Assembly: GCA_025331445.1 (NCBI GenBank)
Contig: JAIWNE010000014.1
Location: forward strand, 248,001 to 312,000
From: Blakeslea trispora
Lineage: Eukaryota > Mucoromycota > Mucoromycetes > Mucorales > Choanephoraceae
Direction: 5' to 3'
DNA length: 64,000 nt
Shown: positions 19,482-24,647 of the stretch, one piece after another
Layout of the letters: each line of letters begins with the position of its first letter
Position numbering within the stretch: the stretch's first letter is position 1
The notes under the pieces: model-generated
What the model saw: the letters and a program-made list of their open reading frames with translations, nothing else
Database searches by the model: none
What the model was told of the DNA's origin: nothing
Made by a program: the position numbers and the translations under genes

Positions 19482-20361
19482 ATGGCTGTTCGTAAGTTAG
19501 CTTTGTGCTTTTGTCTTTAAGGAGAAGACGTTTGGAGATTAACATTCTTTGTTTTTTAGGTGCTCAGTTCGAAAACAGTAACGAAATTGGTGTCTTTTCT
19601 CGTTTGACCAACAGTTATTGTTTGGTTGCCTTGGGCGGCTCTGAAAACTTTTATAGGTAAGCAACTTATTTGTACAGAAGAGAATTTGAGGATAGAGGGA
19701 AACTTACAAAGACATGGCTTTTGATGATAGTGTCTTTGAAGGTGAATTGGGTGATGTTATTCCTGTTGTTCACACTTCTATTGCCGGCACTCGTATCGTT
19801 GGCCGTTTGACTGCCGGTAACAAGAACGGTTTGCTTGTTCCTAGCACTACCACAGATCAAGAACTCCAACACTTGCGCAATTCACTTCCTGACAATATTG
19901 CTGTTCAACGTGTTGAAGAGCGTTTATCTGCCTTGGGTAATGTGATTGCCTGTAACGATTATGTCGCTCTTGTCCACCCCGACATCGATCGTGAAACAGA
20001 AGAGATTATTGCTGATACATTACAAGTCGAAGTTTTCCGTCAAACCGTTGCTGATAACGTGCTTGTTGGATCTTTCTGTGCTTTATCTAACCAAGGTGGT
20101 CTTGTTCACCCTCGTACTTCTGTTCAAGATCAAGATGAACTGTCTTCTCTTTTGCAAATTCCCTTGGTTGCTGGTACAGTTAACCGTGGTTCTGATGTGA
20201 TTGGTGCTGGTTGTGTTGTTAATGACTGGTGTGCTTTTGCTGGTATGGATACTACCTCCACTGAGTTGAGTGTTATGGAATCTATCTTCAAGTTACAAGA
20301 TGCCCAACCTACAGCCATTGTCAACCAATTAAGAGATACTTTGGTCGATACTTACTCATAA
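19482..20361 (+). CDS. TIF6: Eukaryotic translation initiation factor 6 / 60S assembly factor
   Basis: Three exons: 19482-19491 (only ATGGCTGTTC), 19560-19656 and 19731-20361, with GTAAGT and GTAAGC donors and in-phase joins giving [20 protein letters not shown] and [14 protein letters not shown]. The protein is 245 residues, the usual length. TIF6 binds the nascent 60S subunit, prevents premature joining with 40S and is needed in nucleolar 60S biogenesis. Family marks visible are [54 protein letters not shown] and [16 protein letters not shown], the repeated pentein-fold units. An ATG at 19714 lies inside intron 2 and is not the start. Codon use is rich in GTT, TTG and CGT, suggesting high expression, in line with its role. 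Confidence 0.98.
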
Positions 20362-22334
20362 ATCATTCGTACAATTTATTTTTCTCATTTTTATGCATTT
20401 GCACCCAAACACTCTTTGCCATTATCACCACCGTTTTTTTTTCACCATCTAATCCTTATAAAAATTGTATTATATTTTTTTTATCTATTTTTTTTTATGT
20501 ATACAAACCATAGAATTATTTAAATCTTACGCCTATTTCTTTTTGCTTTTGTGTAAACATCACTGACTAGTTACACAATAAAAACTATTTGATTTATGGG
20601 CAGATTTGTATCTCTCTTATGCTCTCATGTTCGAATTAGTGAAAAGGTGACAACATCATTATTTGGAACAGGTCAACTGTGTTGCTTCAAAGTAAACTTT
20701 CTAGTTTTTATTACTAAACATGAGGACTGTGTTTAGGCTTTTGAAGTCGCCTAAGTTTAAGCACATAGTTCTCTTGTGAGAAAAGAAATAATAAAGTTTG
20801 GCCTTATGATTGAGAGACCTTAGAAAGTACGGGTTTCAAGTGAAAATGATACTATAGCCGCTTCTGTTTATTCTCATATCGCCTCAAAGGATTCACTAGT
20901 TTAGTCATGACGATGTTGTGTAGTCGAAATCATTCAGACTGGACTGAGAGAAAGAGATGGCAAGCATGTCTATACACGTTTGCAAAACAGTTCAACCTTC
21001 GTTTTGAATAGGCAGTTAGAATGAGAGGGCTTGTTGGCTAAGAAGAGTAAGGCTACCATGTGGACGGATACAACTATCTGTAAAAGCAAATAATAAAAAA
21101 GCAAGCTGGAAGTGGCAGAAAAGAAGATCAACATCTTTGGGTAAATAGTTCAAAGACTTTGTTTTACAATAGGTTTAAAGTATCTTGGCCATTTGTATAG
21201 ACTGGATCATGTTGATACCTTCTGTTATAGCTTAAGCTTTGATGACTTTGGCCGCTTCGTTTCTTTTCGCTGAAGAATTTCTGGTTTTTGTATCAATCAA
21301 GACGGTTTCGGTTCATGTATTCAATGTAGTGGTCGCCAACAAGACGCTCAGTTCTATTCCCTGTAAAAACCAATGACAGTTTGAGTATTGCTTATTTTGC
21401 ATGCAACATTGCTTCTTGTTAATGAAGATTTGAAAGAGTTCAATAGGGAAAGAGACTGAGGAAGAGGTTTTGTTGGACAAAGGGGTTGTGAGAGGTTTGG
21501 ATGAGAGGGAGCAAGCGACACCGGTTGGAGCATTCGATCCTGTTGGTCAGTCAAGACTACTTTACAGAAGAGCTATATCTTTAATCCAGTTCAAGACGTT
21601 CGTGCGTCAATGACGGGTTTCTTCACATTGCTGCTAATGGACTTTATGGGCAACGATAAGCTTACATTCAATAAAAGCTAGGATTCCTTGAAGAACCAGC
21701 TCTTCTTGAAGTATCTGTTCAAACCTAGACTAGTCAAGTTGTTTATTTTGAAAAAGTACCAACTTGGTTTTAAGTGGTTTTTTTTATGTATAAAGAGAGC
21801 GACCTTCTTTTTAAAACAAGGTACAACAGATTGAAGAATGATTCATGGACTGAGAGGATCGTTTTAAGCACTTACTAGGGGGAAAGAGTTCAATTTGAGG
21901 TACTTGACATGACAGTTTAAATAAATAAATGTTAATCATATTAAAGTGTTGACAACTCAGAGAGCTGTGAAGATGACAACCTTGGCAAGTGAGTGTAGCA
22001 TTCATTTGTAAAGATCCAAAAGATTTTTTTTTTAACAACTCTATAATTTTATTCTATAAGTTGACTATGTGAATGACGCTATCAATCTTCTAAGCATAGG
22101 CAAGTTTGTTACCAAATTCAGGTGTTCAACACTTTAATTTGCTTATCTTTCTACAAACACTTATATTTTAAAGCTAATTTTGTTGATATGAAAAGATACT
22201 CGTGTTCAAAGCACATTTAAATCGTTACAATAAGACAAGCACTTAATTAAACCTTTTAATGAGACATTGATAAATTCTTTTAACTTTTCTTTTATTAGAA
22301 TAAATAAATAGATAAAAAAACTAAACACATTTAC
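20362..22334. other. Non-coding stretch, nothing recognised
   Basis: About 2 kb with only small ORFs lacking domain signals. Possible downstream part of the minus-strand snoRNA host transcript, whose last intron acceptor I place at 22335. No tRNA or rRNA signature was seen. Confidence 0.4.
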
Positions 22335-22389
22335 CTAATTGAAAAAGAAAATCAGTATAAGTTATACGAGAGTAACTAATTCTTTTTTT

Positions 22390-22487
22390 CCTTTCTTTTT
22401 TCAGAGTATATAGCTAGGAGCCGTTTTCATCAAGGATATTTATGAAGACCGTCGTGATATAAGGTATCATCATTCAAAAAGAAAAGG
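22390..22487 (-). ncRNA. snR73: C/D box snoRNA, yeast snR73-like (25S Cm2959 guide)
   Basis: Box C TGATGA at 22467-22472, a C'-like TTGATGA around 22427-22433 and box D CTGA at 22401-22404, with pyrimidine/purine terminal stems (CCTTTTCTTTTT against AAAAAAGAAAGG). The guide is complementary over 12 nt to AGACCGTCGTGA of 25S rRNA (plus-strand 22446-22457), the segment 5' of the sarcin-ricin loop that contains C2959 in yeast. The D' box is degenerate; five positions from it would address the second C of ACC. The guide upstream of box D has no target that I know. Confidence 0.78.
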
Positions 22488-22626
22488 AAAAAAAGAATTA
22501 TTTTGATGTTTACCTTATAGAAAACCTCCGGGAAGACATGTCCTTCTAAGTGCAAGCCAAATATAGAAAGAGTAGCTAAGGAATGAATTAGCATTTGCAT
22601 TCATGAAACATGAGGCCAAAATCCAA

Positions 22627-22716
22627 CAAGATCCATATATCAGAAAGGAAAAACTCTTCATGAAATCAGACATATGCTTGTCTTTTGTTTTTGTTGATCA
22701 TCAATTAGAGATCTTG
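22627..22716 (-). ncRNA. snR74: C/D box snoRNA, yeast snR74-like (18S Am28 guide)
   Basis: The terminal stem CAAGATC/GATCTTG pairs 22710-22716 with 22627-22633. Box C TGATGA is at 22698-22703, D' CTGA at 22666-22669 and box D CTGA at 22640-22643. The guide before D' is complementary over 13 nt to CATATGCTTGTCT near the 5' end of 18S rRNA (plus-strand 22671-22683). The fifth nucleotide upstream of D' pairs with A28, the yeast snR74 methylation site. It is a complete, canonical 90-nt C/D snoRNA inside an intron. Confidence 0.9.
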
Positions 22717-22817
22717 TGAATGGACCTTTCAGAGAGAAAAAATTACCTTCACTAAAAAGAAAAAAGATGTGAGTCAGTGAACCTTTTAAATTATAATATT
22801 CAGTTAATTCTTTTTCC

Positions 22818-22928
22818 GTTTTCAAAGTCTCAGAAATGCATGAATGGAATTAAAAAAGGTTTTTTCGACATTGAACGACTCTTCAGACTCGTCATCTAAA
22901 TTGGGATCATCATTTTGACATTGAAAAC
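22818..22928 (-). ncRNA. snR75: C/D box snoRNA, yeast snR75-like (25S Gm2288 guide)
   Basis: The terminal stem GTTTTCAA/TTGAAAAC pairs 22921-22928 with 22818-22825. Box C TGATGA is at 22907-22912, D' CTGA at 22883-22886 and box D CTGA at 22830-22833. The guide before D' is complementary over 12 nt to CTCGTCATCTAA of 25S domain IV (plus-strand 22888-22899). The fifth position pairs with the G of CUCG, Gm2288 in yeast. A second 11-nt complementarity (GCATGAATGGA, plus-strand 22838-22848) matches 25S about 15 nt further 3', but its spacing from box D does not fit the methylation rule. Confidence 0.9.
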
Positions 22929-23100
22929 AGAAAAAGAACCAACCAACATAGATATTTACCATCTCAGAAAAGACAAGCCATTTTAGGGATAAGATAGTCT
23001 CTTGTAAGCATCCGAAAACACTGTAAGAATAAGATTAGTATGTAAAATAAAAAAGAATTGATCGAATCGAGGGGAAGATCAGTAAACAGCCAATTTATAT

Positions 23101-23192
23101 CTACAGAAGTTTCAGACGGTAATTCCAACTATAATATAGTCGAACATCACTTCAACCCCTTTCATCGATCTTTGATTTCGCGAATAAATTAC
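23101..23192 (-). ncRNA. snR77: Intron carrying C/D box snoRNA, yeast snR77-like (18S Um578 guide)
   Basis: A 92-nt intron (GTAATT...CTGTAG) holds box C as CGATGA (23162-23167, one base off consensus), C' GTGATG (23145-23150) and box D CTGA (23112-23115). The guide before D is complementary over 11 nt to CGGTAATTCCA of the 18S 530 loop (plus-strand 23117-23127). The fifth nucleotide upstream of D pairs with U578, the yeast snR77 site. It is compact, about 60 nt from box C to D. Confidence 0.87.
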
Positions 23193-23342
23193 CTTTTTAA
23201 AAGAAACTCAGCATGGAGTTAAATAAGACGCTACACATAAGCCACAAAAAGTAGAAGGGTAAAAAAGTCTATAGGTAAACATTAGTCTATCTTGTTGCTG
23301 TTTTTTGTTAACAAAGAAACATAAAAGAAAGTGTATCGATTA

Positions 23343-23424
23343 TAAAGTGCATCAGTGGAAAAAGGTTCACATCAATAATCAGAAACTCTAGTTTGTTTGA
23401 CATAAAACATCCTTTGCGCAAACA
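23343..23424 (-). ncRNA. snR78: C/D box snoRNA, yeast snR78-like (25S Um2421 guide)
   Basis: D' CTGA at 23379-23382, C' TTGATG around 23370-23376 and box D CTGA at 23352-23355; box C is weak (GGATG near 23408-23412). The guide before D' is complementary over 11 nt to ACTCTAGTTTG of 25S (plus-strand 23385-23395), and the fifth position pairs with U2421, the yeast snR78 site. The second guide can pair with AGTGGGGAAAGGTTC of 25S with two G-U pairs, the region otherwise served by U24. Outer boundaries are approximate. Confidence 0.72.
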
Positions 23425-23815
23425 AACACACTTTCTCTTATGTTTCTTTATGTCTTTGTTAAAAGAAACTGATGACTCACCTTATTTTATTGAAAATAAA
23501 ATACAAAAGAAAAGGAAAGGACTGAAAGATGAGTTTCGGGGAGGCTTTTTTATAAACAATTTTTTGAGAAAAATTTTTTAGGGTCAAGCAGTCACTTTTT
23601 TCTCAAATAAATTTGGCGTTAAACATTTTGTAATTCCTTATTGAAGGTGCACACTAAGGAAAGTAGTCACCTCACGTCAAAGCATGTTTGAGTTTGACAT
23701 AACCATAGTCCAAGTCGCCAACTCACAAAGCTGCTTACTACAAAATGATCATTAAAAGATGCATGAAAATGGGTTGATTTTATAAGGCAAAAGCACAAAG
23801 ATGACAATCGCGACA

Positions 23816-23960
23816 TACAGTAGTCGCTCTATTTAAGGGTGGGTTTTTGAAAAGTGTCTATCAATACAAGCTCCAAGGCCAATTCTATGTGAAGGTATTC
23901 TCCATTTTAGAGTGAGGTTTTCAAGATTTTTGGTTACCCTTAAGTGGAGCGACTATTGTA
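23816..23960. mobile_element. 141-bp pogo/Tigger-like MITE
   Basis: Left end CAGTAGTCGCTCTATTTAAG begins at 23818 and right end (reverse complement) CAATAGTCGCTCCACTTAAG ends at 23958. The ends agree at about 22 of 25 positions, and looser pairing (TTTTTGAAAA) extends inwards, so the whole unit is nearly palindromic. TA dinucleotides flank both sides (23816-23817 and 23959-23960), the Tc1/mariner/pogo target duplication. The CAGTAGTC-CTC start resembles pogo-family ends as I recall them. There is no ORF. Confidence 0.75.
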
Positions 23961-24647
23961 CCCACACACAATAGAGATGTTTGCTAGCCCTAAAATGCAC
24001 CGTTTTTGGAGATTGTTGGGACATTAGCTGATTTCAGATGTTAACGCTTCAAATATTACTAAATCATCATAGTTGTCTAATCCTTTTTTTTTTTCTTGTT
24101 GTACTGAACAGTCAGCTAATCTGGTATCAGAATGTATGCTGAACTTTTTCAAAATGTCAATCAAAGCATTGTTGCTAATTTCTTAATTGGAAGAATGATA
24201 GAGGTGTGAATGAAAGTGTTGTATCAAGCATAGATTTTTTTTATAAGACTTTGGAGTTCAAATACAATAATTAATGTGAAACTAGTTGCAAATGCTCAGA
24301 GCTTAGTATGCAGACAAAAATGTCAATAAGAATCTAGTTTGTAAAGTGCGTTTTGTTGCAACTGTTAATCATAGATTCTATAGTCGATACAAAGCCTTTT
24401 CATTTGCAACATACACTTTACATTCATTCTTTGACTAGCCTAATTCTCTTTCTCTTATTTTTCTATACATCTCCTTCTCTCTTTTTGTTTCTTTTTTACA
24501 TGGTCTATTCCATCTTTTGATGCAAGTAATTCTGCTTTTCATTTTCAAACACTGCCTCAATATTTTCCGAATAAAGTGTAAAATAAAGATTTCCATAAAC
24601 AGCTTCTCTGCATCTGGTTCTTTTTTTTTATTTTTACCAACACAAAC
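23961..24647. other. Promoter region of the J-protein gene
   Basis: No gene was seen. An ATGATGA...CTGA pair on the minus strand at 24030-24072 resembles C/D boxes, but I found no rRNA match. The last 200 bp are pyrimidine-rich, as is common just upstream of start codons in this window. Confidence 0.45.

Follow-up and report, generated by a model that had tools for sequence, protein, structure and literature searches.

The minus strand of the window (the whole stretch of DNA analysed, 64,000 nucleotides) carries five C/D snoRNAs between positions 22335 and 23480. A cmscan search with Rfam models identifies them, in order of transcription, as snR78-77-75-74-73. This is the order of the Saccharomyces cerevisiae polycistron, as a previous sequence-only reading of this DNA had proposed, together with its count of at least five minus-strand C/D snoRNAs. 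The covariance matches confirm the cluster as real at the level of sequence families. It is very probably a Mucorales copy of fungal cluster I, in which a spliced non-coding host would carry five snoRNA introns, with the intronic form taken as ancestral. Five of the seven cluster I members are present, in order and on one strand. The cluster is one more example of an arrangement already known and not a new one. The five snoRNAs are the following:

23350-23417, minus strand: snR78 counterpart; RF01176, 36.0 bits, E 0.0048, below the gathering score of 48
23077-23154, minus strand: snR77 counterpart; RF01509 (Afu_300), 44.9 bits, above the gathering score of 40
22828-22915, minus strand: snR75 counterpart; RF01185, 71.1 bits, E 1.8e-12, above the gathering score of 40
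22636-22709, minus strand: snR74/U27 counterpart; RF00086 (SNORD27), 45.4 bits, E 5.1e-6, below the gathering score of 52
22399-22475, minus strand: snR73/U35 counterpart; RF00211 (SNORD35), 22.0 bits, E 0.15, below the gathering score of 36

The covariance search that the sequence-only reading had suggested matched all five families, but only snR75 and snR77 (the latter as Afu_300, E 2.8e-5 over 64 kb) pass the Rfam gathering score, with snR74, snR78 and snR73 below it. Scored as snoR77Y, snR77 reaches 39.4 bits against a gathering score of 52. The E-value of the SNORD35 match is 0.0061 when only 171 bases are scanned; the identity of snR73 rests on its guide and place. Boxes C and D, with a guide upstream of D or D', are present in the five snoRNAs. 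Box C of snR78 is degenerate (GGATG) and was placed by hand at 23412, with a C'-like TGATGT at 23374, and box D' of snR73 is degenerate. Weak Rfam matches around snR73 to bacterial leader and microRNA models were rejected and attributed to the long AT-rich stem, including a Phe_leader match that beats SNORD35 in E-value (0.064 vs 0.15, and 0.0026 vs 0.0061 in 171 bases).

A relaxed C/D scan of both strands of the 4.3 kb gap that surrounds the cluster returned four rows, at snR77, snR75 (two rows) and snR73, and no additional snoRNA. The scan missed snR78, which has an irregular box C, and snR74, which did not reach the thresholds for stem and guide; any other snoRNA resembling these two could have escaped it as well. 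The scores of snR73 and snR78 under the family cut-offs, and the rRNA matches of 10-12 nt that arise in shuffled sequences, would fit chance matches to AT-rich intergenic DNA. The probability of such an origin is nevertheless practically negligible, given the E-values of snR75 and Afu_300 over 64 kb, the five families in yeast order inside about 1.0 kb, and the position of all four relaxed scan rows of the gap at snR77, snR75 and snR73.

The genome searched comprises 37.2 Mb in 285 contigs. At E <= 0.001, snR75 has one genomic place among the best 56 of 6209 candidates scored, and snR74 one among the best 64 of 16621. The degenerate box C of snR78 and box D' of snR73 could also be signs that the cluster is a decayed copy that is not transcribed. 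That reading is extremely improbable, since no second place for snR75 or snR74 appears among those candidates, and both guides and splice-like signals have been retained, as have the flanking stems of four of the five snoRNAs.

As targets of the five guides we assume 25S Um2421 for snR78, 18S Um578 for snR77, 25S Gm2288 for snR75, 18S Am28 for snR74 and 25S Cm2959 for snR73. The fifth-nucleotide rule, which the sequence-only reading had found to land on known sites, does fit all five when worked by hand on yeast numbering, in the case of snR73 on condition that CATA serves as D'. In the Rfam alignments of SNORD27 and snR78, the guide beside box D' is identical to the family consensus, and in that of SNORD35 (snR73) the guide is kept with one change from the consensus. 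No rDNA of the organism itself was found in the genome with 18S and 25S sequences or with a foreign LSU contig (L003); the searches had no positive control, and an empty result alone shows nothing without one. Eukaryotic rDNA was also not found in viral contigs. Because the organism's own rDNA was not found, the sites were tested on foreign eukaryotic rRNA from contaminant contigs in bacterial bins, L002 (SSU and LSU) and L003 (LSU only).

The guides of snR75 and snR73 match this foreign rRNA exactly over 12 nt, and that of snR77 over 10 nt, with each match ending one base before D', which in snR73 is the degenerate box. For snR78 and snR74, there is no D'-adjacent guide match in L002 or L003. 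L002 differs from yeast rRNA at both the snR78 and snR74 sites; L003, which is without SSU, has only ACTCTAGT (eight bases) in common with yeast at the snR78 site. The case for these two guides is based on the Rfam alignments and yeast rRNA. A match length of 10-12 nt is weak evidence, because shuffled snoRNAs also reach it: 12 nt in 18/500 shuffles of snR75 and 19/500 of snR73 (overall range 13-19/500), and 10 nt in 194/500 shuffles of snR77 (overall range 194-246/500). Other matches of 9-11 nt to the same foreign rRNA also occur away from D'. The place beside D' carries the argument.

A second stretch of snR75, CCATTCATGC at 22838-22847 on the minus strand, precedes box D and matches LSU rRNA over 10 and 11 nt. 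In both foreign rRNAs the match is located about 20 nt downstream of the main target, and the stretch is part of the Rfam consensus. It may provide an auxiliary pairing.

Guide and box-D patterns with one mismatch allowed detected neither snR76 nor snR72 genome-wide; the patterns were built on yeast 25S, and a diverged guide would escape them. Within the 4.3 kb gap, the longest guide match of snR76 is 8 nt, and snR72 has no guide match as long as 8 nt. Matches of 11-12 nt to the snR72 guide in the window were set aside, as none is then followed by a D box when inspected by eye.

The host transcript is predicted to consist of the following introns and exons, given in order of transcription:

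23269-23480, minus strand: predicted intron 1, 212 nt, GTGAGT...CTAAT...TAG, hosts snR78
23193-23268, minus strand: predicted host exon, 76 nt
23021-23192, minus strand: predicted intron 2, 172 nt, GTAATT...CTAAT...CAG, hosts snR77
22960-23020, minus strand: predicted host exon, 61 nt, at the position of snR76 in the yeast order
22752-22959, minus strand: predicted intron 3, 208 nt, GTAAAT...CTGAC...TAG, hosts snR75
22747-22751, minus strand: predicted host exon TGAAG, 5 nt, between the snR75 and snR74 introns
22576-22746, minus strand: predicted intron 4, 171 nt, GTAATT...CTAAT...TAG, hosts snR74
22514-22575, minus strand: predicted host exon, 62 nt
22335-22513, minus strand: predicted intron 5, 179 nt, GTAAAC...CTGAT...TAG, hosts snR73

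The minus strand of 22300-23650 contains six donor-like sites, five of which precede the five snoRNAs, and nine acceptor-like sites, five of which are used in the model. For intron 1, the TAG acceptor was preferred on visual inspection to a CAG around 23297. In snR77, 75, 74 and 73, box C is located 40-46 nt after the donor. A preset pattern recognizes a donor-like site for all five snoRNAs and an acceptor with branch point for four; it misses the acceptor of the snR75 intron, where the branch-like CTGAC is 22 nt upstream, outside the preset range. The earlier placement of each snoRNA in its own intron agrees with splice-like signals at all five, one acceptor falling outside the preset range; splicing and the mature RNAs are predictions. 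Per site, shuffled sequences yield a donor at rates of 0.08-0.25 and an acceptor with branch point at rates of 0.20-0.38 (2000 shuffles each), which is no blind test because the region had been read before the splice patterns were drawn up. Of 5000 places picked at random in the window, 4.0% have both donor and acceptor. The neighbouring protein gene has four introns, delimited by eye to keep the reading frame open across the joins, with donors GTAATT, GTAAGA, GTAAGT and GTAAGA and with TAG acceptors. The first of these donors, GTAATT, is shared with two of the five cluster introns. The introns of the neighbouring gene measure 51-58 nt, whereas the predicted cluster introns span 171-212 nt.

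The longest ATG ORF of the modelled spliced host, for which 24100 and 21900 were chosen as arbitrary ends, is 49 aa, in line with the apparently non-coding host of the sequence-only reading. Animal hosts of the UHG/GAS5 type have a snoRNA content other than that of cluster I. Like the predicted unit, they are spliced, non-coding and carry a single snoRNA in each intron (cf. passages of PMC2780460). The 5-nt exon would be hard to splice in the usual way. The last acceptor, at 22335, is followed at once by a donor-like GTAAAT (22334), and this pair is possibly a recursive splice site or a relic of a lost intron.

Long complementary arms enclose three of the snoRNAs:

23313-23449, minus strand: stem around snR78, 22-nt arms, 95% complementary, 0/500 shuffles as strong
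22803-22943, minus strand: stem around snR75, 27-nt arms, 85% complementary, 0/500 shuffles as strong
22374-22503, minus strand: stem around snR73, 28-nt arms, 89% complementary, 0/500 shuffles as strong

The duplex energy of the stem flanking snR74 is equalled in 2/500 shuffles, and that of snR77 in 57/500, not clearly beyond chance; by this measure the stems of four of the five snoRNAs are stronger than nearly all shuffles. Flanking stems aid intronic snoRNP assembly in yeast intronic snoRNAs, and by analogy the stems described here are taken as probable aids to the same process. From the families, their order, the splice-like signals, the stems and the lack of a long ORF we infer a course of transcription, splicing, trimming and methylation. 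The minus strand would give rise to a non-coding host transcript, from which the spliceosome would take out five introns with one C/D snoRNA each. The debranched introns would be trimmed by exonucleases up to the snoRNP, with the flanking stems bringing boxes C and D together and aiding trimming, and the snoRNPs would then 2'-O-methylate 18S and 25S rRNA. Exonuclease trimming of intronic snoRNAs has a parallel in passages of PMC5033589.

Alternatively, the long stems of a precursor that is not, or not fully, spliced might be cut by an RNase III-type enzyme, in a yeast-like manner, with splicing being secondary. The tight enclosure of three snoRNAs by stems of 22-28 nt is what this would lead one to expect; however, the loop of each stem is the snoRNA itself, whereas Rnt1 substrates are short capped hairpins. 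The donor-like sites at all five snoRNAs and the acceptors, four by the preset pattern and the fifth in a looser listing, argue for splicing. Published passages describe Rnt1 cleavage of S. cerevisiae cluster I (PMC5033589) and a site of the S. pombe RNase III Pac1 across the splice junction of a snoRNA precursor, reported in 2025 (PMC12508059), whereas R. oryzae cluster I is described as intronic (PMC3596301). We consider release by RNase III in place of splicing very unlikely. It is conceivable, if unlikely, that the 5-nt exon and the 22335/22334 junction reflect non-standard stepwise or recursive splicing, with the stems and RNase III as a back-up release route; Mucorales would then represent an intermediate between spliced and endonuclease-cut forms.

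Splicing of one snoRNA per intron, the reading that we prefer, conforms to published fungal clusters. Luo et al. 2013 (PMC3596301) defined cluster I as snR78-77-76-75-74-73-72. According to that paper, the clusters sit in introns in Euascomycetes, Basidiomycota and Rhizopus oryzae, certain Basidiomycota have relocated or lost certain members, R. oryzae has lost the snR76 intron, and snR72 is gone from cluster I in most species. The cluster in the window shares with those described there the same snoRNAs in the same order, a predicted intronic layout and a host without a long ORF, and with R. oryzae the absence of snR76. It differs from them in the species, in its predicted 5-nt exon and in its long flanking stems, and the predicted 5-nt exon is comparable to the internal exons of other fungi that are small or absent according to the same paper (PMC3596301). 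According to passages of Liu et al. 2009 (PMC2780460), the Neurospora hosts are spliced, as confirmed by RT-PCR, and have only short ORFs. The N. crassa cluster I is similarly an intronic C/D cluster in such a host, but contains a fused snR78/snR72 double guide (CD5) and an snR76 homologue (CD12), which were not found here. In Candida, cluster I is spliced, and cluster II undergoes nested and recursive splicing (passages of PMC5033589). The S. cerevisiae snR78-72 polycistron (Qu et al. 1999, cited in PMC5033589) has the same guides in the same order; it is unspliced, has seven members and is cut by Rnt1, whereas the five members in the window are predicted to be intronic.

The yeast form is ascribed in passages of PMC3596301 to de-intronization, the degeneration of splice sites, "as proposed recently", and the direction of change is given as intron loss in Saccharomyces (PMC3596301, PMC2780460). 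We take the intronic form here as ancestral and the unspliced, Rnt1-cut form of S. cerevisiae as derived. The recent proposal is probably that of Mitrovich et al. 2010. The ancient linkage with a changed processing mode put forward by the sequence-only reading is sound, but it is already in print in passages of PMC3596301 and PMC2780460; the novelty that it implied is not supported, because the arrangement has been published, R. oryzae included. Intronic snoRNAs of RPL7 and NOG2 are described across fungi, Mucoromycota included, in passages of PMC8476143 that leave cluster I unmentioned, and among the papers listed by literature searches on snoRNAs in Mucoromycota or Mucorales, none has a title or abstract opening devoted to cluster I in this lineage. 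The cluster adds another early-branching fungus to the published pattern. It agrees with the idea that hosting in introns is the ancestral state of fungal snoRNAs and the unspliced yeast form derived, and alone leaves this idea unchanged. "The fungal snoRNAome" of Canzler et al. 2018, cited in PMC8476143, may well cover this cluster. The small extras beyond the published arrangement are the predicted 5-nt exon, the length of the intronic stems and, elsewhere in the genome, part of a second cluster.

The cluster is located in a gap of 4.3 kb (20362-24647) without any ORF of at least 120 aa in the ORF listing, as noted previously. The earlier extent of 22335-23450 does hold the minus-strand cluster, but the unit ends at 23480 rather than 23450, because the first donor sits at 23480. 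The gap is bordered by two genes:

19714-20361: eIF-6 gene with its stop codon at 20361, oriented convergently to the predicted snoRNA host
24648: ATG of a J-domain-like gene with an HPD motif seen by eye

The eIF-6 protein is a ribosome biogenesis factor. The one ORF piece of the J-domain-like gene that was scanned gave no Pfam family. A protein similarity search with one window protein found its best named match in Mucor saturninus (67% identity), and 13 of its 18 organism-named matches are from genera that we assign to Mucorales. On the similarity of this one protein, the genome is placed in Mucorales.

Another contig of the genome, C209, carries a SNORD33-like and an snR61 C/D snoRNA in tandem (L005:1232-1579, about 527.7-528.1 kb). 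The SNORD33-family match (36.4 bits vs a cut-off of 44) ends 183 nt upstream of snR61 on the same strand, and by its order it is probably snR55. The snR61 match has 32.7 bits, below the cut-off, and 40.7 bits against a cut-off of 45 in a second scan. No match to snR57 was reported within the 3 kb scanned around the pair. Each of the two snoRNAs is preceded by a donor-like site, with the acceptors not settled, and snR61 has perfectly complementary 12-nt flanks (L005:1486-1497 and 1578-1589). The pair is probably in part a counterpart of fungal cluster II, which suggests, without proving, that the intronic layout extends beyond cluster I in this genome.
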